Source of the DNA: Desulfuromonas acetoxidans DSM 684
GTDB taxonomy: Bacteria; Desulfobacterota; Desulfuromonadia; Desulfuromonadales; Desulfuromonadaceae
Reading direction: 5' to 3'
Assembly (NCBI RefSeq): GCF_000167355.1
Contig: NZ_AAEW02000005.1
Location: 62,001-126,000 of the forward strand
Length of the DNA: 64,000 nt
Numbering within the stretch: the first letter of the stretch is position 1; the number at the start of each line of letters is the position of its first letter. Of the stretch, positions 42,265 to 51,900 are shown piece after piece. The notes beneath the pieces are model-generated. The model worked only from the letters and a program-made list of their open reading frames with translations, was not told the DNA's origin and made no database searches. Both the position numbers and the translations under genes were made by a program.

Positions 42265-43768
42265 GATGTTCATGCTGAACGAAAGAGCTGGGGCGCTAAA
42301 CAACAGACTCACCAAGGGTGGGCACCGTCCCACCCGTTTAATTGGTGCCACGGAAGAAATAGAGTAAGGTGTCAAACCGTTATCAACATTTACGCCAGAT
42401 ATGATGAGTAGCATGATTTGCCGAGCTAAAGGGAGGCACGCCGAATAAGTGAAGCACACCGGAAATCGCCCCATTATCGGTTGATCCAGGTCCAGGAGGT
42501 GTTCAAGCTGTTTTTTACATACTTTTGAATGCCAGTCAAAAGTATGTCGGTTGCCGGGACGAAACCCGGCGACCTTGCTCTTGACTTTGATCTTCAGTGG
42601 TTCGTCATTCGGAACGAATCGCGCTGGCAAACATCATCCGTTCGCAATTCTGGTACGCACGTGACGTGGGCTTCCGCGCCCACACCTCGGGCCACATTTT
42701 GCGTCGACAAAAGTGGCGCAAAATCGACTCCCGTCATTGCACCCTGCGGGTCCCCTCACTTCATTCGCTTACGCTGTGATGTCGGCAAAAACTCGCTCAC
42801 GCTCAAACAGTTTGCCGACAACCATCACAGCGACGCTCTTTGCGTTCGGTGCTGCTGAACGGGAGAACTTGGTTGCTAAATAACAACCCCAGACAGGGTG
42901 GGCAGTGCCCACCCGCTTAATCGGTGCCACGGAAGAAATAGGGAGCTGCGTCAAACCGTTATCAACGTTTTACGCCTAAGATGATGAGTTGCATGATTTG
43001 CCGACCTAAAGGGCGGCGAGCCGAGTCTGTGAAGCATAACGGAAACAGACTCACTGTCGGTTAGTCTAGGTTAAGGAGGTGTTCAGCTGGTTTTTGCATA
43101 CTTTTGGGCGGCCAGCCAAAAGTATGTCGGCTGCCGGGACGAAACCCGGCGACCTTGACGTTGATCTTGACCTTGCTCTTCAGTGGTTCGTCATTCGATA
43201 CTGATCACGCTGGCAAACTTCATCCGTTCGCAATTCTGGTACGCACGTGACGTGGGCTTCCGCGCCCACACCTCGGGCCACATTTTGCGTCGACAAAAGT
43301 GGCGCAAAATCGACCCCCGACCATTGCGCCCTACGGGTTCCCTCTCTTCGTTAACTTACACCGCGATGTCGGCAAAACTCGCTGCCGCTCAGACAGGTTG
43401 CCGACGATCATCGCGGTGACGTTCACTGCGTTCGGCGCTGCTGAACGGGGGAGCTTGGCTGCTAAATAACAAACCATCGCAGGGTGGGCACCGTCCCACC
43501 CGTTTAATCGGTGCCACGGAAGAGATAAAGGTCGGCGTCAAACCATTCTCAACGTTTTACGCCTGAGGTGGTGAATTGCACAATTTGCCGAGCTAAAGGG
43601 AGGCAAGCCGAATCTGTGACGCATAACGGAAAGAGACTCACTGTCGGTTAGTTTAGGTTCAGGAGGTGTTCAGCTGGTTTTTGCATACTTTTGGCCGGCC
43701 AGCCAGAAGTATGTCGGCTGCCGGGACGAGACCCGGCGACCTAGACCTTGATCTCGATCTTCAGCTCT
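42265..43768. repeat. Tandem array of a ~580-586 bp hairpin-rich unit (about 2.5 copies)
   Basis: Matching landmarks recur at offsets of 580 and 586 bases. GGGTGGGCA begins at 42316, 42896 and 43482. TTCGCAATTCTGGTACGCAC begins at 42641 and 43227. Each unit contains several dyads: GGGTGGGCA/TGCCCACCC-type, CATACTTTTG/CAAAAGTATG, GCCGGG-ACGAAA-CCCGGC, GTGGGCTTCCGCGCCCAC, and a long GTCGGCAAA...TTTGCCGAC. A stretch of about 85 bases from 42641 is identical in copies 1 and 2. The third copy is cut short at the DUF2062 gene. Short reading frames in it are not conserved in frame between copies, so I read it as non-coding. Confidence 0.8.
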
Positions 43769-43770
43769 TT

Positions 43771-44235
43771 TCACAAAACCATCGTCTTAACCGAGTCAGG
43801 CCGAAAGCGATGAAGCAGAGTCCGTGTTGCCAAATAACTGAGCGGAAACAACGCCAGGTTGATCCCACCCCACAAAACCAGAGCCTGCAGATTAACCAGC
43901 CACAGTTGTTCGAGTCCGGCCAGCGGAGCATCAAACAACTGAGCCACAAACTCACGATTAAGCGACACCGGATTACCGAACAACCGGGCACCCCAATAAA
44001 AAAACGGGAAAAATAGCGCAATCTGCACCGGGTACAACAAATAATTCACCAACTGGATCAGAGGGTGGCTCAAACGCCACCACCACCCCACCGCCAGACA
44101 GATGACGCAACTGCCCCACACCAGCGGCATGGTGCCCATCATCAATCCAACACTGATACTCAGAGCAATTTTACGGGTACTCAGCCCCTGACTGAACGCC
44201 CGAGTGACAGCCTGGCGCAGTCGGGAGCGCCACAT
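43771..44235 (-). CDS. DUF2062 membrane protein
   Basis: 154 residues, mostly hydrophobic, with about three membrane segments. STRKIALSISVGLMMGTMPLVWGS is the DUF2062 N-terminal pattern, and a NYLLYPVQIALFFPFF segment follows. It is the last gene of the four-gene operon and its ATG overlaps the preceding stop by one base (TGATG). The function of the family is not known; it is often found near envelope glycosyltransferases. Confidence 0.75.
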   Translation of the reverse strand: MWRSRLRQAVTRAFSQGLSTRKIALSISVGLMMGTMPLVWGSCVICLAVGWWWRLSHPLIQLVNYLLYPVQIALFFPFFYWGARLFGNPVSLNREFVAQLFDAPLAGLEQLWLVNLQALVLWGGINLALFPLSYLATRTLLHRFRPDSVKTMVL

Positions 44236-45278
44236 CAGATCCGCTCATCATGGACAAAAAAGCTCAATGTCGCCCCAGTGACGGTACTTTTGCCGGTGTA
44301 CCAGAAGATGACCAACCACACCGCCTGCAAAGACAGCAACACCAGCGGACTCCACAAAGCGGCCAGGCCATTGCCAATCTGGGCCGTCAGCGGCTCTGAG
44401 ACCGGAACCAGCCACGCCACGATCACGACATAAGCCATGCCGACAACACCCATCCACTGATAGGCACTGAAGCGCTGGTTGCCGCGATAATCAGCACGCA
44501 GAACTTCGGAAAACACCCGCCAGCCCTGCGTGACCACGGCGGTCAACATAAAAGCCCATTGGTAGTGGCCAAGCAAAAACAAGCCACTGCCAATCACCGA
44601 AACAGCCACGTAAAGAATCGCAGTGATCGCCTGAATCGGCACCACCGGCTGGCCCTGCAGACCACTGGCATAAGAAATTTTCTTGTTTTCGCCATAAAAT
44701 ACAAAGTGATAGCGCTGAAAAAGCTTGCGCAGCAGCGAGGAACAATCACTCAGAGGCTTGCCATAGCAGCAGCCGAAACTGATACACGCCAGCCGCCCCA
44801 ACCCTTCGCCCATGGCATAAGCAATTCCAAGGGCCGCCAGCGTTGCCAGCATCGGCAAACGGGGTGCATCACCACTCAAATTGATCAAACCAATCAGCCA
44901 CGGTGCCACAATAACACCGACAAACACCGCGCCACCCACGGTGAAGGTATGCGCTTTGCCTTCCACCACTTTTGCCACCCAGCGCGATGCCGGCACACAG
45001 ATGGCCAACAACAGAATGGCCAAAATCAGCAACGGAGCCAACTCAATGGCCACGGAACGCAACAGGATAATAAGCATTAACAACGCCATCACATAAGCGT
45101 TAGCCGTCAACAGGCCATACCAGGTCAGGTTGAATCCCTGCCAGGAACCGGTTCCCTCAGTTTTCACCGGTACAGCGGCCAGCATCTGCCAGCGTTCACC
45201 GGGAAGATATCTGCACCCCAGATAAAGTAAGGCCCCGCAGATCACTGTCAGGGCCAGAAGAAACAACACATTCTCCAT
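44235..45278 (-). CDS. Lgt-like (prolipoprotein diacylglyceryl transferase family) membrane protein
   Basis: A 347-residue integral membrane protein. The Lgt signature appears as GEGLGRLACISFGCCYGKP (~155-173), the GCCYG variant rather than the GRxGNFxNxE form, and RVFSEVLRADYRGNQRFSAYQ near 255 corresponds to the C-terminal Arg/Glu motif. The start at 45278 has AAGGAG seven bases upstream and shares one base with the previous stop. Because the Asn of canonical Lgt is missing, it may transfer a lipid group to a different acceptor (inference). Confidence 0.7.
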   Translation of the reverse strand: MENVLFLLALTVICGALLYLGCRYLPGERWQMLAAVPVKTEGTGSWQGFNLTWYGLLTANAYVMALLMLIILLRSVAIELAPLLILAILLLAICVPASRWVAKVVEGKAHTFTVGGAVFVGVIVAPWLIGLINLSGDAPRLPMLATLAALGIAYAMGEGLGRLACISFGCCYGKPLSDCSSLLRKLFQRYHFVFYGENKKISYASGLQGQPVVPIQAITAILYVAVSVIGSGLFLLGHYQWAFMLTAVVTQGWRVFSEVLRADYRGNQRFSAYQWMGVVGMAYVVIVAWLVPVSEPLTAQIGNGLAALWSPLVLLSLQAVWLVIFWYTGKSTVTGATLSFFVHDERI

Positions 45279-46318
45279 CAATCGTCTCCTTGTCGGGCTG
45301 GCTCGTCAGCCCGCGGTAAGGCAATGGTTGACCGCACCGGCACATCGGTTTCCACCAACGGGCGACCAAAACCAAGACTGAACCGGCTGCTGACACCCTG
45401 ACGCTGCTGGTTTTCCAGCAGATCAGGGCAAAAACGGATCCGTCCCGGCTCAAACAACAGCACATCGGTACTGCTGCCAGGGCGAAAAAGACTCTTGGGC
45501 TGGCCGCGCTCCAAGAGGACACCAGCCGCTTGCTCACTCACCGGCTCGTAACCTTGAGGATTGGCGCTGTAGCAGGACTGGATGTCACCAATCATCAACG
45601 CCACCACTTCAATCATCGCCACCAATCCGACCTGGCTACCGCCTTCAACATCGGTATCGATGATCGTGACCAGACGGCGATTTTTCGAATACGGGGTAAC
45701 CTCGGCTACCACAGCGCCGGGATTGCAGGCATGATAACGGCCACCCAGTTCGTAGATGTCACGAATCACACCAGTGACCGGAACATGGTTGAAATGATAT
45801 TTGTCCGGGGTCAACCGCAGGACGGCAAAATCGCCCTGGTTAAAGCACTGCAACCAGTCGTCTTTATCGGCACCCAGCAAATCGTCGAGAGAAAAGAATT
45901 TATCTTTGAGAAACAAGGCATCGGTCTGGGTCAATGAACCGACCACAAGACGAGCATCCGCCGTTGACACCACGGTTTCGACCCTGTCTTCCATGGGGCG
46001 GCACTGCCAGTAGCGTATTTTGCGCTCAAAAATCTTGCGCGGAGTGGTCAGTGTGGCCGGATCATCAAGACATTCACTGAGATCAACGCCGCATTTTTTG
46101 AGAAATGTATCCTGACCGCTGGCGCGACTGACCCGGTCGAGATCATAGTTGATGGTACCAAGCCATGAGGACACCCGCGGTCCGGTCAGGGCATTGAACA
46201 CAACCGGCGCGTACTCGCGCAACGGGTGGTACATCCAGCGCACCAGACGATCCGCATACAGAGTTTCATCACAAACCTGGCCACTAGCTCGCTCGATATA
46301 CTGGTGTGTCGCTTGCAT
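45278..46318 (-). CDS. Phosphatidylserine decarboxylase-like enzyme
   Basis: A pyruvoyl-dependent decarboxylase family member, 346 residues. LTPDKYHFNHVPVTG (~170) is the family DYHRxHxPxxG motif, and FRPGSSTDVLLFEPG (~275) contains the Gly-Ser-Ser self-cleavage site that yields the pyruvoyl group. An N-terminal ~120-residue extension is present. The start at 46318 has GAGGAGAG about 11 bases upstream; the frame to 46372 lacks a site. It overlaps the 815-residue gene by 35 bases and the Lgt-like gene by one. The substrate may be phosphatidylserine or a related headgroup. Confidence 0.8.
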   Translation of the reverse strand: MQATHQYIERASGQVCDETLYADRLVRWMYHPLREYAPVVFNALTGPRVSSWLGTINYDLDRVSRASGQDTFLKKCGVDLSECLDDPATLTTPRKIFERKIRYWQCRPMEDRVETVVSTADARLVVGSLTQTDALFLKDKFFSLDDLLGADKDDWLQCFNQGDFAVLRLTPDKYHFNHVPVTGVIRDIYELGGRYHACNPGAVVAEVTPYSKNRRLVTIIDTDVEGGSQVGLVAMIEVVALMIGDIQSCYSANPQGYEPVSEQAAGVLLERGQPKSLFRPGSSTDVLLFEPGRIRFCPDLLENQQRQGVSSRFSLGFGRPLVETDVPVRSTIALPRADEPARQGDD

Positions 46319-48731
46319 TGTTGTAGAAACTCTCCTCTTTGGATGGGGTTTGAGCGGCCTGCTGATCGACATGGATACTTAGCAGCACCAGATTGATCAG
46401 GCGCAACAAATTCGCACCATGCAGGTTCTGGTAACGAGCAGCATCCATAAGTTGATCATAGGCATCTGTCAGACGGCGCTGGCCACAGATCATGCGCAAG
46501 GTGGAGCGGACACTAGCGTGCTGGGTTGCCATACGCTGCAGATGTGGCAGCTCATGGCGCAGCAATTCAAGTGCCTCGTCCACATGGCGTCGCCGCAATG
46601 TGGTACGGTAAAACTCCTCAGCGGCACGGTTAAATTCAGCGGCCGGCACCTGAAGCGGTTGATTGGTACCCAGAGTACTCATGATGTCCGCCGTCAAGCG
46701 ACCGGACACAGAAAACTCATCAGGGCATTCGATACGACGCCGCAGATCCGCCATCAGCTCCCGGCAGCCCATCTGTTCAATCAGATCGGCACCGTCTTCA
46801 CTGAGCACCTCGATCAGTGCCCGACAATACTCCTTCTGATAAACACGCAGATAACCCGGATAACGGCGGCTGTTGCGAATCTGTTTGGTTTTGCGCAAAA
46901 TCCGCAACAGAAACCGGTTACGCGTGGTGCGCTTGACAAAGAAGGTCGGCAGGCCCAAAGCATGACCGAAGAAAATCTGCCGTCGTTCACTCTCAACGCC
47001 GGGATTATCGGGAATATGGCGGTGATCGTAACGCCCTTCAGCCATATATTTAAACGCCAGCGCGGTGATCAGGGTCTGCAAGGTGGTGGCTGCGCCCATA
47101 TCCTGTTCAAATCCGGCAAACAGACTGTAATGACGCCCTTCAAAGCCGCTGAATCCCATGGTATTGAATTCACGCATCTTAAAGAATTGATACAACGACA
47201 TGCGCGCATCAAATACACCCATGGCATCAAGATCGTGACGCAACCGTTCCTGATTACCCGCCACACCATTGAGCGCTGGACTTTCGTCACTGCTTAAAAA
47301 CCCAACCGGATAATCGACCAGACGAAAATCGGGGACAAAATCACCCTTGAGGCCAAACAAGCGGCTCAACGGACGGTCGATCCATTCCGGTCCAAACGGT
47401 GTACGGCTGTGGCTGATCAGATTGAGGCTGGACTTTTTGCGCCAACGCCGCCACAACATGCGCAAGTGGGTAAAATCCAGTTCGTGAGCAAGAAAACCCA
47501 GGGCTTTTTCCGGGTGAAAATCCTCAAAACCCAGCCGGTACGGGGCCGCACTGAAATTGGCGGCAAACAGCGGCAGAAAGTGCTCCTGAATCTTAATGGC
47601 CAGATCTCCGCAATATTTCTCTTCGTCAGCGCCAAACAGTCCGCGTTCTCCTTTCATGTGGGCGGTCAGGCGGCGACTGCCGAGGCTGATGTGGGAACCA
47701 TTGTTGGCCAGACTGATGTTGGACATGTTGGGCAACACCACCAGGTTGTTGGTGATAATCCCGGCCTCGCGCAGTTTGGCCACCGCATTGAGCTGGCTGC
47801 GACTGAGCACCTGATGACACAGATGCATGTACTGATGCTTCTCTTCCCCTTTGTCCCAGCCCGACAAACAGGGGCTCATATACAGCTCACGATAGAACGC
47901 ATCGGGAATCATCTCATTGAGCTGTTTCTGGCGTTGCGGTGGATGCGGCGCACAGTAGATCTGGGCCTGTTGTCCACTGGCCGTTAAACCGAACTGTTCG
48001 TTGGCATATTCGGTCAGCAGTTGGGTAAGCAGAAAACGCTTGGCGGTCTCGTGCGCCAGCGCCTTACCCTGGCCGTTATCGGCCGACAGTCCGACAACAT
48101 GAAACGAAAACGTCTCCGGGGAGGTGTTGTCGTTAAGGTAGTGATTGAGTAACCCTTCAGCGGTGGCGCGCAGATCCTGATGGAGGTACGGCTGGATGCC
48201 GATCAGATCGGCCAGAGACAGTTTGACCAGATAACTCAGCGGCAGGCGTAATTTTTGTTCACCCTGTTCATCGGTGAAGCAAAAACGGTGCAGATCGGAG
48301 CGGTTACCCAACTCCGGGTGACTTTTATCGGCAAGAAAATCCCGCTCCAGAACCTGCTGGGCATAACGACTCAATACGGAACGGTTGAAACGAACCCAAC
48401 TGTTTTCCCATACCTGCTGGCCCTGGTCGCTGATAAATTCACGCAGAGCTTCAACCTGCTTTTCCGGCGTATCTCCGGATTGGGTCCGTTTGATCATATT
48501 GGCAAAAAAACGGGATTGTTCGATGGTCTGCGGCAGATCAACCTGTGAAGCCGACCCCACCACAACGGCCTGCAACTCACTCTCAGAACCAGCGGTCACA
48601 TCACCATTCGCAAACGGCAAGTTCCCCAACGTGGTGCACCCCATCCGTTCAAACAAATCCGGAAGATTCGGCGTGTGGCGAGGATGATCGTGCCGGATTC
48701 GGTTGAGAACCTGCAGTCGTGGTGACTTCAT
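46284..48731 (-). CDS. Unrecognised 815-residue protein heading the lipid operon
   Basis: I do not recognise this family. It is soluble-looking with no signal peptide or transmembrane helix, rich in Arg and His, with well-formed alternating structure. The central segment (~325-380) NMSNISLANNGSHISLGSRRL and a Glu/Asp/His-rich stretch, GFEDFHPEKALGFLAHELDF (~405), look like an enzyme active-site region, and REFNTMGFSGFEGRHYSLFAGFEQDMGA (~525) is another candidate. It starts with AGGAGC before ATG at 48731 and overlaps the decarboxylase gene. Context suggests an enzyme that makes or uses the decarboxylase substrate (inference only). Confidence 0.7.
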   Translation of the reverse strand: MKSPRLQVLNRIRHDHPRHTPNLPDLFERMGCTTLGNLPFANGDVTAGSESELQAVVVGSASQVDLPQTIEQSRFFANMIKRTQSGDTPEKQVEALREFISDQGQQVWENSWVRFNRSVLSRYAQQVLERDFLADKSHPELGNRSDLHRFCFTDEQGEQKLRLPLSYLVKLSLADLIGIQPYLHQDLRATAEGLLNHYLNDNTSPETFSFHVVGLSADNGQGKALAHETAKRFLLTQLLTEYANEQFGLTASGQQAQIYCAPHPPQRQKQLNEMIPDAFYRELYMSPCLSGWDKGEEKHQYMHLCHQVLSRSQLNAVAKLREAGIITNNLVVLPNMSNISLANNGSHISLGSRRLTAHMKGERGLFGADEEKYCGDLAIKIQEHFLPLFAANFSAAPYRLGFEDFHPEKALGFLAHELDFTHLRMLWRRWRKKSSLNLISHSRTPFGPEWIDRPLSRLFGLKGDFVPDFRLVDYPVGFLSSDESPALNGVAGNQERLRHDLDAMGVFDARMSLYQFFKMREFNTMGFSGFEGRHYSLFAGFEQDMGAATTLQTLITALAFKYMAEGRYDHRHIPDNPGVESERRQIFFGHALGLPTFFVKRTTRNRFLLRILRKTKQIRNSRRYPGYLRVYQKEYCRALIEVLSEDGADLIEQMGCRELMADLRRRIECPDEFSVSGRLTADIMSTLGTNQPLQVPAAEFNRAAEEFYRTTLRRRHVDEALELLRHELPHLQRMATQHASVRSTLRMICGQRRLTDAYDQLMDAARYQNLHGANLLRLINLVLLSIHVDQQAAQTPSKEESFYNNASDTPVYRAS

Positions 48732-48928
48732 GAAAAGCTCCTGACATCGTGTGCAAGGTAAAAAACGTTGACGGTGCGCACGATGCCCGAAGTTTATGTG
48801 GATTGGATTTGAACCGTGTAAAGGTGCGGTTAGATCAGCACAAACATACTGTGCGTGTTAGCACTGTGTTTATGGGGACGTTATCTATGGAAAATATCAG
48901 CCCTTTTGCGGAGCGTTAAATGAACGTC

Positions 48929-51900
48929 CTACGAGGATGGCATGTCTTGTGAAAACCAAGTGATCCCCTCACAATTGGCGCAGCGACACTGACGGTGACG
49001 CATGAATTCTTCAAATTCAGCAACCGGTAACGGTCGACTGCAGAAATAGCCCTGAATGTAAGTACAGCGATGATCGTGAAGCAGCGTGACATGATCCTCC
49101 GTCTCAACCCCTTCTGCGGTAACTTTGAGATTCAAACTGCGCGCCAGCGCCAGAATCGACAGAACAACATTGGTGCTGTCACGGGAATCGGGCACCTCAA
49201 ACATAAATGAACGATCAATCTTCAAAATGTCAAGGGGCAGACGGGTCAGATAGCTTAACGACGAATAACCAGTGCCGAAATCATCGATGGAGATCTCAAC
49301 ACCAAGATCACGCAACGACCGGAGGATCTGCACCGTATTGTCAATATCCTCAATAATCATGCCTTCAGTGATCTCCAGCTCAAGAGCTTCGGCAGGCAAT
49401 TGCGCCTCTTTGAGGATATCAGCGACCAAGCGCGGCAGGTAATCGAGATCAAACTGGGCAGGGGACAAATTGACACCCATATGAAATTCGGGATACTCCT
49501 GCCGCCAGATGTGAGCCTGTTCACAGGCCTGGAGCAGCACCCATTCACCAATGGGCAGAATCAGCCCGGTTTGCTCGGCAATGGGAATAAAACGGTCCGG
49601 GGGCACCATGCCGTCACGACTGTGCCACCGCAGCAGCGCTTCCGCACCGACGACCATGCCGTCTTTGAGGTTGATTTTAGGTTGGTAGTAGAGTTCAAAT
49701 TCTCCATTGTCCACGGCTTCGCGCAACATCTCGGCCAAGCTCATTCGTTCAATCACCCGATCGCTCATCACCTGTTCATAATAACTGAAACTGTTGCGCC
49801 GAATATCTTTGATCGAGTACAGAGCGATATTGGCATTTTTGAGCAGTTCGGACACCGTTTCGCCATCATCGGGAGCCACGGCAATACCAACACTGGTGGT
49901 CAAACTGACCCGTTGTGCGCCAATCACAAAGGGGGCTTCAACGCACTCAAACAGTTCATCCAACAATGACCTGACCCGCTGTTTACGCAGAATAAAGGCG
50001 AATTCATCGCCGCCAATTCTGGCAACAAAGGAATCGTCATAACTGCATAACGTCAGGCGTTCGGAAAACATCTGCAGCAGTTTGTCGGCCAGAACCGGTC
50101 CAAGGGATTCATTGATCAGCTTGAACGCATTGAGATCGAGCACCATCACCGCCAGATTACAAGCTTCATCACAGGTAGTCAGGTGCTCTTCAAGCTTTTG
50201 CGCAAATGACACCCGGTTGGGCAGACCGGTCAGAGTGTCGAAATAGGCCAGTTGATGTAACTGGCGTTCAGCTTCTTTGATCTGACTGATATCGGATGAA
50301 ATGGAGAAAAAGTTTTTGATGGAACCATCGTGATCACGAATAGTATCAATGGTCACCCAGGAGACATATTCTTCACCGTTTTTGCGGCGATTCCACACCT
50401 CCCCTTCCCAGTGACCCGTATCGATAAGTTGCTTCCACATCTGAGCGAAAAACGCACCGTCATGATGATCAGACTGTAACAATCGCGGATTCTGCCCAAG
50501 GACTTCACCACGTGAGTAACCACTGATGGATATAAACGCCTGGTTAACTTCAATGATCTGATTACACCGATCAGTGACAATGATCGCTTCAGCCGTATTT
50601 TCAAACACCTTGGTAATCAGTTTCAAACGGCGCTCAGCCGCCAGAGCCTCGGTCACATCGCGACCAAAACCGATAAAATTATCGATCTGGCCGTTTTCAT
50701 CATATTCAAAGATGGCATCCCATAAAAACTGCCGCACCCTGCCATCGCGCATTTTCAGCGGCGCATGGAAATCACCGGTAAATTCACCATGGGCCATGGC
50801 TTTGGCAATATATCCCCCTAAATGCTCAGCTGTGGCCGGCGATGTGAACAGACCGAAAAAATTCTCCTGAAGGACATCTTCCCGTGCATAGCCGGTAGCT
50901 TTCTCCGCCGCCTGGTTAAACAGAATAATGCTCGAAGTATGATCAATACCGATCACCACCAGACCGGAATGCTCAATCATGTCTGAAAAGCGCTTTTCCT
51001 GCTGAAAGCGAATCTGATCACCAACGCGCAAACGCTCAAGCATCTCATTGATGGTGTTGCCGATGGCAGCGACTTCATCATCACCATCAACCTCAACGAC
51101 CCTGTTCTGATCCGCCATCTGATTGCGACCGATTTGCTCCAGCCCCTGATTGAGGCGTACCAGGCGGGACAAGACCAGCACATCGAGGATCATCTGGGTG
51201 ATAAACACCATGACGACACTGGCAAAAACAAACAGACCGAAAAACGCCAGCAGATTGCGTCGACTGAACTCACGCATAAAGCGAAAGCTCCCAGAATGCA
51301 AAACAAACGTGTCGTGCCCATTAAGATCGCTGAGGGATTTTTTCAGGCAGTTGTAAGATACGTCAGGACAAGTGCGCGGAGCCTCTTCAGCCAAGGTGAT
51401 CCCGGCATGCATCTGCAACTCGTGATTAACCCGCTGCCAGAACGCCTCGCCCAACAGAAGACCGACAACCACCGTCCCCCCAGAAGACGTGTCATCTCTA
51501 CCATGAACTATAGGACGTGTCACCAGCAACAGCGGTTGGTCTTTAAAACGAACAAGACCGTTTTGTCCGTCGCTCGTCGCCAAAGAAACCTGCTCTGAAA
51601 CCTCTGCAAAAAGATTGCCTTTGTAGTTGGCAAGGACATGAAGGGATTTTTGGAACACAGGGGATTGATCAGGACTGACAATAAGGACAAAATCGACGGG
51701 AAGCGTATCAAAAAAAGCCATGGACAGGCTGTTCTCGCCATCCCCCTCGGTAACGCGCCATAACGGATCGAGAATTGAAACGGAATGGGCGATATTGATC
51801 AGATCATTCTCTTTTTCGTCCAGCAGGTTTTCCACCCGCAACAGAGCTTCGTGGCCGAACTGACTCTCAACCTTTTCAAGGTTCTTTTCATTGAACAGTT

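Follow-up and report, generated by a model that had tools for sequence, protein, structure and literature searches.

A stretch of 64,000 nucleotides from Desulfuromonas acetoxidans DSM 684 (assembly GCF_000167355.1, contig NZ_AAEW02000005.1, positions 62,001-126,000 of the forward strand), referred to here as the window, carries four overlapping genes on its minus strand, designated g1 to g4. The first, g1 (46284-48731), encodes a protein of 815 amino acids (aa) that forms its own family and has a predicted carboxylate-amine ligase fold of the kind found in glutamate-cysteine ligase and in PafA and Dop. It is followed by g2 (45278-46318; 346 aa), a phosphatidylserine decarboxylase (PSD)-like pyruvoyl enzyme (Pfam PS_Dcarbxylase, PF02666, at 2.9e-32), by g3 (44235-45278; 347 aa), a membrane protein of predicted Lgt fold (Pfam LGT, PF01790, at 1.9e-7), and by g4 (43771-44235; 154 aa), an accessory DUF2062 membrane protein (PF09835, at 2.3e-9). 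A sequence-only reading of this DNA had reported the four genes and their overlaps, and the reading frames bear out both: g1 and g2 share 35 bases (46284-46318), g2 and g3 a single base (45278), and g3 and g4 likewise one (44235). The start of g2 is an ATG at 46318 with GAGGAGAG directly ahead of it. Comparison with two congeners gave dN/dS ratios (non-synonymous to synonymous substitution rates) of 0.02-0.07 for each of the four genes, at a high dS of 0.67-1.05. Below, we argue that g1, g2 and g3 form a dedicated unit that may synthesize an undescribed membrane amphiphile.

The g1 family and its predicted fold

The sequence-only reading had called the 815-aa protein unrecognised, and sequence searches agree: it falls in no Pfam or NCBIfam family, and no match to a recognisable housekeeping family appeared. 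The window's g1 has no Pfam match at all. Among 47 members of the family, matches were confined to single members, the best being a transposon helix-turn-helix at 0.0011 in Pfam and a hit at 0.031 in NCBIfam, and PF04107 (GCS2) was not among the matches of any member. A profile search of the PDB had a spindle-pole protein as its best match (0.033), and a search of PHROGs gave a best value of 0.33.

A structure search, set beforehand as a check on this protein, found a predicted carboxylate-amine ligase fold. The AlphaFold2 model of g1 (mean predicted local distance difference test score, pLDDT, 89.2; predicted template-modelling score, pTM, 0.91) had GshF, glutamate-cysteine ligase (GCL), Dop and PafA as its first eleven Foldseek matches. 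With VIA-align the same model reached Z scores of 16.0 against GshF, 15.9 against GCL, 15.5 against YbdK, 14.4 against PafA and 14.3 against Dop, and 20 PDB entries of these five proteins lay at Z 10.1-16.0. Type III glutamine synthetase came next at Z 6.1-6.6, followed by unrelated proteins at no more than 3.1.

The accessible text of PMC2588565 describes a signature for this ligase superfamily: core strand 1 has Ex[EH] (GhExE in PafA/GCS2), core strand 4 has [HD]x[NH] or [HQ]x[NH], core strand 6 has Ex[RK]x2D, and core strand 5 has an arginine, a second arginine lying in the loop before it. Strand equivalences in g1 were set by order and motif in the alignment, not by model coordinates. In g1, strand 1 (predicted strand 45-52) holds G48-x-E50-x-E52, each residue being present in 47/47 sequences; position 49 is mostly S, V, C, T or A and is not always hydrophobic. 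E109, on strand 107-109 by an equivalence set by eye, is also invariant (47/47), and no second acidic residue is conserved on strand 113-116 in the 47 sequences. Strand 4 (346-352) is marked by G345-x-H347, the histidine occurring in all members, and strand 6 (529-535) by an E531-x-R533 that is equally constant. R520 (strand 517-520) and R470 are found in 47/47, their equivalence to the superfamily arginines being set by order only. We regard g1 as a new, sequence-isolated family with a predicted carboxylate-amine ligase fold and, judging by the model, as probably an ATP-dependent ligase.

The closest known systems resemble g1 in part. The glutamate-cysteine ligases (GshA/GCS1, GshF and YbdK/GCS2) share with it the fold (Z 15-16 for the bacterial ones), the strand-1 ExE, the strand-4 GxH and the strand-6 ExR. 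The positions of E27, E29, H150, E328 and R330 in E. coli GshA were checked, and these are presumably its active-site residues; the spacing from the histidine to the ExR is 178 residues in this enzyme and 184 in g1. No sequence similarity between them and g1 is detectable. In g1, the first two motifs are also about 174 residues further apart, two motifs occur as the variants H-x-S/T and ExRxxS, the length is 815 aa and the partner genes are fixed. Pup ligase PafA and depupylase Dop share the predicted fold and differ in their partner genes. A role as a stand-in for glutathione synthesis was considered and rejected: among 58 relatives, a GCS2 gene is present in 10 of 19 g1 carriers and in 29 of 39 non-carriers, which indicates neither strict dependence nor exclusion. 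Separately, no GCS2 ligase was found in the window's family (its own genome and 13 relatives), and 39 of the 44 other genomes searched have one.

Relatives of PSD and Lgt as partners

The second gene is a clear member of the PSD family, scoring 112.4 bits against PF02666 (cut-off 22). Its best match in a profile search of the PDB was 7cnw, at 2.8e-18, which is the E. coli PSD according to the accessible text of PMC7952604; the same source gives the self-cleaving set of that enzyme as Asp90/Asp142-His144-Ser254. D121, H175, H178 and S283 of g2 are invariant (48/48), the first two aligning with D90 and H144 of 7cnw and S283 being placed by motif. In place of LGST, 46 of the 48 sequences have PGSST as their cleavage motif, and the other two have PGSSS (L086) and PGGST (L098). 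Thus g2 has the pyruvoyl-type catalytic and autocleavage residues of PSD; it differs from that enzyme in its PG[S]ST motif, in reaching 118.5 bits against the best curated model, NF001941, well under the equivalog cut-off of 371, and in being the third PSD-family gene of its genome. At the column of Ser166 of E. coli PSD, g2 sequences have S (30), A (15, the window included), P (2) or C (1). From its sequence, g2 is probably an active pyruvoyl enzyme that works on a lipid-like or amino-acid-like substrate. Because its own genome holds two other PSD-family genes, it is not the sole candidate for the synthesis of phosphatidylethanolamine (PE), and the gene beside one of these others reads, from its sequence, as a phosphatidylserine synthase. 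A 305-aa PSD-family protein with a GGST motif, 32% identical to g2, is encoded elsewhere in this genome, away from the operon, at L142 4581-5498 (G000 C10).

The same PDB search also matched, more weakly, PSD-family L-tryptophan decarboxylases and their relatives (PsiD-type, 3.3e-7 to 6.2e-5). Together with the soluble peptides that are the products of GCL-fold enzymes, these matches leave some room for a pathway in which g1 and g2 make a small soluble amide or amine, such as an osmolyte, cofactor or antioxidant, which g3 only binds or exports. We consider this unlikely, as g2 is far closer to E. coli PSD than to the PsiD-like enzymes, and g3 retains the residues of a phosphatidylglycerol (PG) site.

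The AlphaFold2 model of g3 (pLDDT 91.5) aligned with E. coli Lgt (5azb) in VIA-align at Z 13.3 over 235 residues, with a root mean square deviation of 3.9, the next chain reaching 4.8; Foldseek likewise returned the Lgt fold (E 8.2e-4). Because of the Pfam match and the gap in Z to the second rank, these data speak for a kinship of g3 with Lgt, the Z score counting mainly in combination with these two. The odd Lgt signature noted by the sequence-only reading is real: g3 has GLGRLACISFGCCYG as compared with GAGRLGNFINGELWG in E. coli Lgt, and where the Lgt signature reads GRLGNFINGELWG, g3 has GRLACISFGCCYG.

The accessible text of PMC4728403 ties Y26, R143, R239, E243 and R246 of Lgt to PG binding and diacylglyceryl transfer, Arg143 and Arg239 being essential and forming a pocket around the bond to be cut. 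A MAFFT alignment of 49 g3 sequences with E. coli Lgt finds the equivalents of Tyr26, Arg143, Arg239, Glu243 and Arg246 kept in 49, 48, 49, 49 and 49 sequences, respectively (Y54, R162, R254, E258 and R261 of g3), with an alanine at the Arg143 position of L099 as the sole exception. His103 of Lgt, in the HGGL motif, is also essential and is proposed to be part of the peptide (lipobox) site (PMC4728403). It is kept in none of the 49 sequences, which have V (30), I (6), A (6), T (4), L (2) or C (1) in its place, V120 being the residue in the window. The equivalents of Asn146 and Glu151 are cysteine in 49/49, other residues of the E. coli Lgt network, such as Asn149, Tyr235 and Tyr259, are not kept, and Cys165, Cys170 and Cys171 are invariant (49/49). 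Compared with Lgt (PF01790), then, g3 has the same predicted fold and PG-activating residues, and differs in the replacement of His103, Asn146 and Glu151, in its three invariant cysteines and in longer N- and C-terminal segments. Residue by residue, g3 seems to have retained the PG donor site and altered the site for the protein acceptor.

These features bear on two further explanations. In one, the operon would modify proteins: g1 would act on proteins in the manner of PafA, attaching a peptide or another small molecule to them, and g3 would anchor a non-standard class of lipoprotein. PafA and Dop are indeed among the closest folds to g1 (Z 14.3-14.4), and proteins are the usual substrates of Lgt. 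However, the essential histidine of the proposed peptide site is missing from every g3, and a pyruvoyl decarboxylase would have no obvious role. Pup-type proteins end in GGE or GGQ, and a search up to 1.5 kb from the core in 54 loci found no frame of 30-90 aa with such an end, which is a weak test for a Pup-like small reading frame beside g1. Modification of proteins therefore seems improbable to us.

In the other, g1 would cap PE or another amine lipid supplied by g2, and g3 would be a PG-binding flippase or remodelling subunit, not a transferase. Here the relevant residue is R168 of g2 (48/48), which stands at the hidden Markov model (HMM) alignment column of Tyr137 of E. coli PSD. Tyr137 is in contact with the phosphate of the lipid, and an arginine replaces it in 15% of the family (PMC7952604, accessible text), so that R168 would fit a phospholipid substrate. 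The supply of PE is already covered by other PSD-family genes, however, and the conserved catalytic arginines of Lgt would be left unexplained, so that we give capping of this kind little more than an outside chance.

Linkage of the core genes across the phylum

Two samples were searched, one of 297 genomes spread over the phylum and one of 58 close relatives (the window's own genome included). In the phylum sample, 31 genomes have strong matches to g1, g2 and g3 on one contig and strand, and 264 have a strong match to none of the three. A g1 gene occurs in 19 of the 58 close relatives and in 32 of the 297 genomes, one of the latter (G059) having a fragment at a contig end; an HMM search with 47 g1 sequences recovered the same 31 full-length genomes and the G059 fragment, with nothing intermediate. 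Strong matches to g2 and to g3 each number 32 in the 297 genomes, at no less than 357 and 264 bits, respectively, and the next matches drop to 88.5 and 36.9 bits; we take these weaker ones for ordinary Lgt genes and further members of the PSD family. The carrier sets of g2 and g3 are identical, being the 31 full g1 carriers plus G175, whose contig ends 146 bases after the g2 match, on the side expected to hold g1. One cultivated carrier of the operon is Desulfogranum mediterraneum DSM 13871 (L035).

The sequence-only reading had treated the four genes as one unit and had made synteny beyond one genome a test of it. The synteny was found for the core trio, which shares one contig and strand in 31/31 full carriers; the unit shrinks to these three linked genes, since DUF2062 lies outside the conserved core as an add-on of the window's class. 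Its emphasis on overlap also needs correction in part: the g1-g2 overlap recurs in 42 of 47 other loci, but g2 and g3 overlap in just 9 of 48, elsewhere being spaced by 6-426 bases (start codons were chosen by rule for these counts). Looser arrangements exist: g3 is displaced by about 4.8 kb on the same contig and strand in G257, and a 2.5-kb stretch separates g1 from g2 in G114. Between g2 and the displaced g3 of G257 (L083) lie two long genes in the same orientation; the first encodes 735 aa, and the second, cut off by the end of the sequence examined, at least 487 aa. A small protein that looks DksA/TraR zinc-finger-like is inserted between g2 and g3 in L026, L088 and L095. Distance matrices of g1, g2 and g3 correlate with Pearson coefficients of 0.76-0.83 (40 loci), values that are uncorrected for species phylogeny and are not used as evidence.

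A housekeeping role for g2 and g3 was rejected on the basis of other gene copies, which were sought in 38 of 48 carriers; G001, G007, G011, G012, G013, G038, G039, G053, G054 and G333 were left out, all save G333 being broken or fragmentary. At least one further PSD-family gene is present in 38/38 and a separate canonical Lgt in 37/38, only the operon copy being found in G216. In G282, the Pfam model found the canonical Lgt alone and the operon copy was found by a protein query. These results support g1-g2-g3 as a dedicated unit with a function other than housekeeping. They also bear on a simpler account, in which g2 and g3 are spare copies, of a PE-forming PSD and a lipoprotein Lgt respectively, that came to lie beside an unrelated g1 by chance. 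In keeping with this account, g2 retains those catalytic residues of PSD that were examined, but the linkage to g1 holds in every full carrier of the sample, housekeeping-type copies of PSD-family and Lgt genes are already present, and g3 has no His103. Chance linkage of spare copies is thus largely refuted already, and we consider it very improbable.

Other origins and functions were also examined. Searches of 72,556 plasmid records gave no match, none of 13 pattern matches in viral contigs was a relative, and a plasmid or viral origin of the operon was rejected on these grounds; a defence system was likewise set aside, there being no PADLOC match. An exact 8-residue pattern scan of genome contigs retrieved 12 loci, all in records titled as delta-proteobacterial, by a method that misses many relatives, as the 297-genome sample alone holds 31. 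The gene set is undescribed in the open-access literature searched, a scope that omits subscription journals; the amidoligase survey of Iyer and others (2009) might mention it.

A proposed route to a membrane amphiphile

In the sample, a ligase, a decarboxylase and a PG-dependent diacylglyceryl transferase never occur one without the others, which suggests that they synthesize, in three steps, a lipid with an amide- or amine-bearing head group. We therefore propose that the core trio is a self-contained biosynthetic pathway for an undescribed membrane amphiphile, made by amide ligation, decarboxylation and diacylglyceryl transfer, and put the probability of this reading at roughly 0.53. From the gene linkage, the predicted folds and the conserved catalytic-type residues we infer each reaction, the sequence in which the reactions follow one another, and that the product is a lipid. 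In this scheme, g1 would activate a carboxylate at the expense of ATP and join it to an amine or thiol; by analogy, this carboxylate would be the gamma-carboxylate of glutamate. With its self-made pyruvoyl group, g2 would remove an alpha-carboxylate beside a free amine, and g3 would move the diacylglyceryl group of PG onto an acceptor other than a prolipoprotein. The outcome would be a diacylglyceryl lipid whose head group is a decarboxylated amino acid or amide. The sequence-only reading had suggested a dedicated lipid or lipid-transfer pathway; the dedicated unit and the lipid theme survive, and biosynthesis is now likelier than lipid transport given the predicted ligase fold of g1.

The g2 and g3 steps would take place on opposite sides of the membrane. 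The active site of Lgt is thought to face the periplasm (PMC4728403, accessible text), and PSD is active at the cytoplasmic face (PMC7952604, likewise), so that passage of the lipid, or of a precursor, through the membrane would be needed. In one class, DUF2062 may assist by hosting the intermediate or moving it, and only where it is present could it do so.

Several observations weigh against this biosynthetic reading. The best Foldseek E value of g1 was 8e-3 (probability 1.00, TM-score by query 0.31), with none at or below 0.001, and hhalign of g1 with 10 GCS2 sequences gave no match (E 0.14 over 18 columns); given the failure of profile-profile comparison and the weak Foldseek value, the assignment of g1 derives from the predicted fold and the second look with VIA-align. 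The strand-4 motif is H-x-S/T (S in 42, T in 5) and not H-x-N/H, and position 536 is S in 47/47, giving ExRxxS and not ExRxxD. For g3, VIA-align warns that mostly helical models can reach a Z near 14 without true kinship, and E. coli Lgt without His103 is inactive (PMC4728403, accessible text), so that g3 may not be a transferase. As to the unit itself, the metagenome-assembled genome of L027, which may be incomplete, has g1 and g2 with no g3 found, and the g1 frame is broken in two genomes of the window's genus in which g2-g4 look intact. Such departures may stem from faulty assembly, or they may mean that cells can do without the pathway.

In L027 (6757-8190), the g2 frame continues without a break into the later portion of a DUF2062 protein, an arrangement suggestive of a deletion of g3. 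The g1 frame changes lie at about 9025 of L039 (G007), near residue 140, and at about 5478 of L038 (G001), near residue 92; they affect two of the five g1-bearing genomes of the genus, and one of the two is a single-contig assembly.

A more specific version of the pathway, which we regard as a long shot, has as its product a sulfur analogue of PE with cysteine as the building block. Here g3 would keep the chemistry of Lgt without its protein acceptor and transfer the diacylglyceryl group from PG to a thiol, either that of free cysteine or that of gamma-glutamyl-cysteine. S-diacylglyceryl-cysteine would be a phosphate-free look-alike of phosphatidylserine, from which g2 would then form S-diacylglyceryl-cysteamine, and g1 would cap the amine with a glutamyl or similar group. 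With two C16:0 chains, the predicted [M+H]+ values for this version are 672.523, 628.533 and 757.576.

We know of no described pathway that combines the enzyme types of g1, g2 and g3. Here the three occur as one unit, all or nothing in the sample, in about one genome in ten of the phylum, and a large protein family that is blank in Pfam and NCBIfam gains a predicted structural identity. An Lgt relative that has seemingly kept its lipid donor and changed its acceptor would widen the known uses of diacylglyceryl transfer.

DUF2062 and the flanking DNA

The fourth gene matches DUF2062 at 37.8 bits (cut-off 27.4). No DUF2062 gene was found beside the operon in any of 27 loci outside the window's class (L085-L111; tblastn at 1e-3, which a diverged copy could escape), and DUF2062 is an add-on seen only in that class. 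Flanking reading frames of at least 80 aa were clustered over 54 loci. One large, mixed cluster, some members of which have signalling-type motifs, comprises 42 frames in 31 of the loci, and it supplies the immediate same-strand upstream neighbour in only nine, five of them in the window's genus; the remaining clusters cover at most nine loci each. A sigma-70 promoter scan of 43500-49000 returned no site, which is uninformative with 3.1 sites expected by chance. Just downstream of the operon, at 42273-43761, a unit of ~586 bases occurs in two to three tandem copies, parts of which are 67-93% alike; no gene is assigned there, and each copy holds an inverted repeat around CATACTTTTGG.

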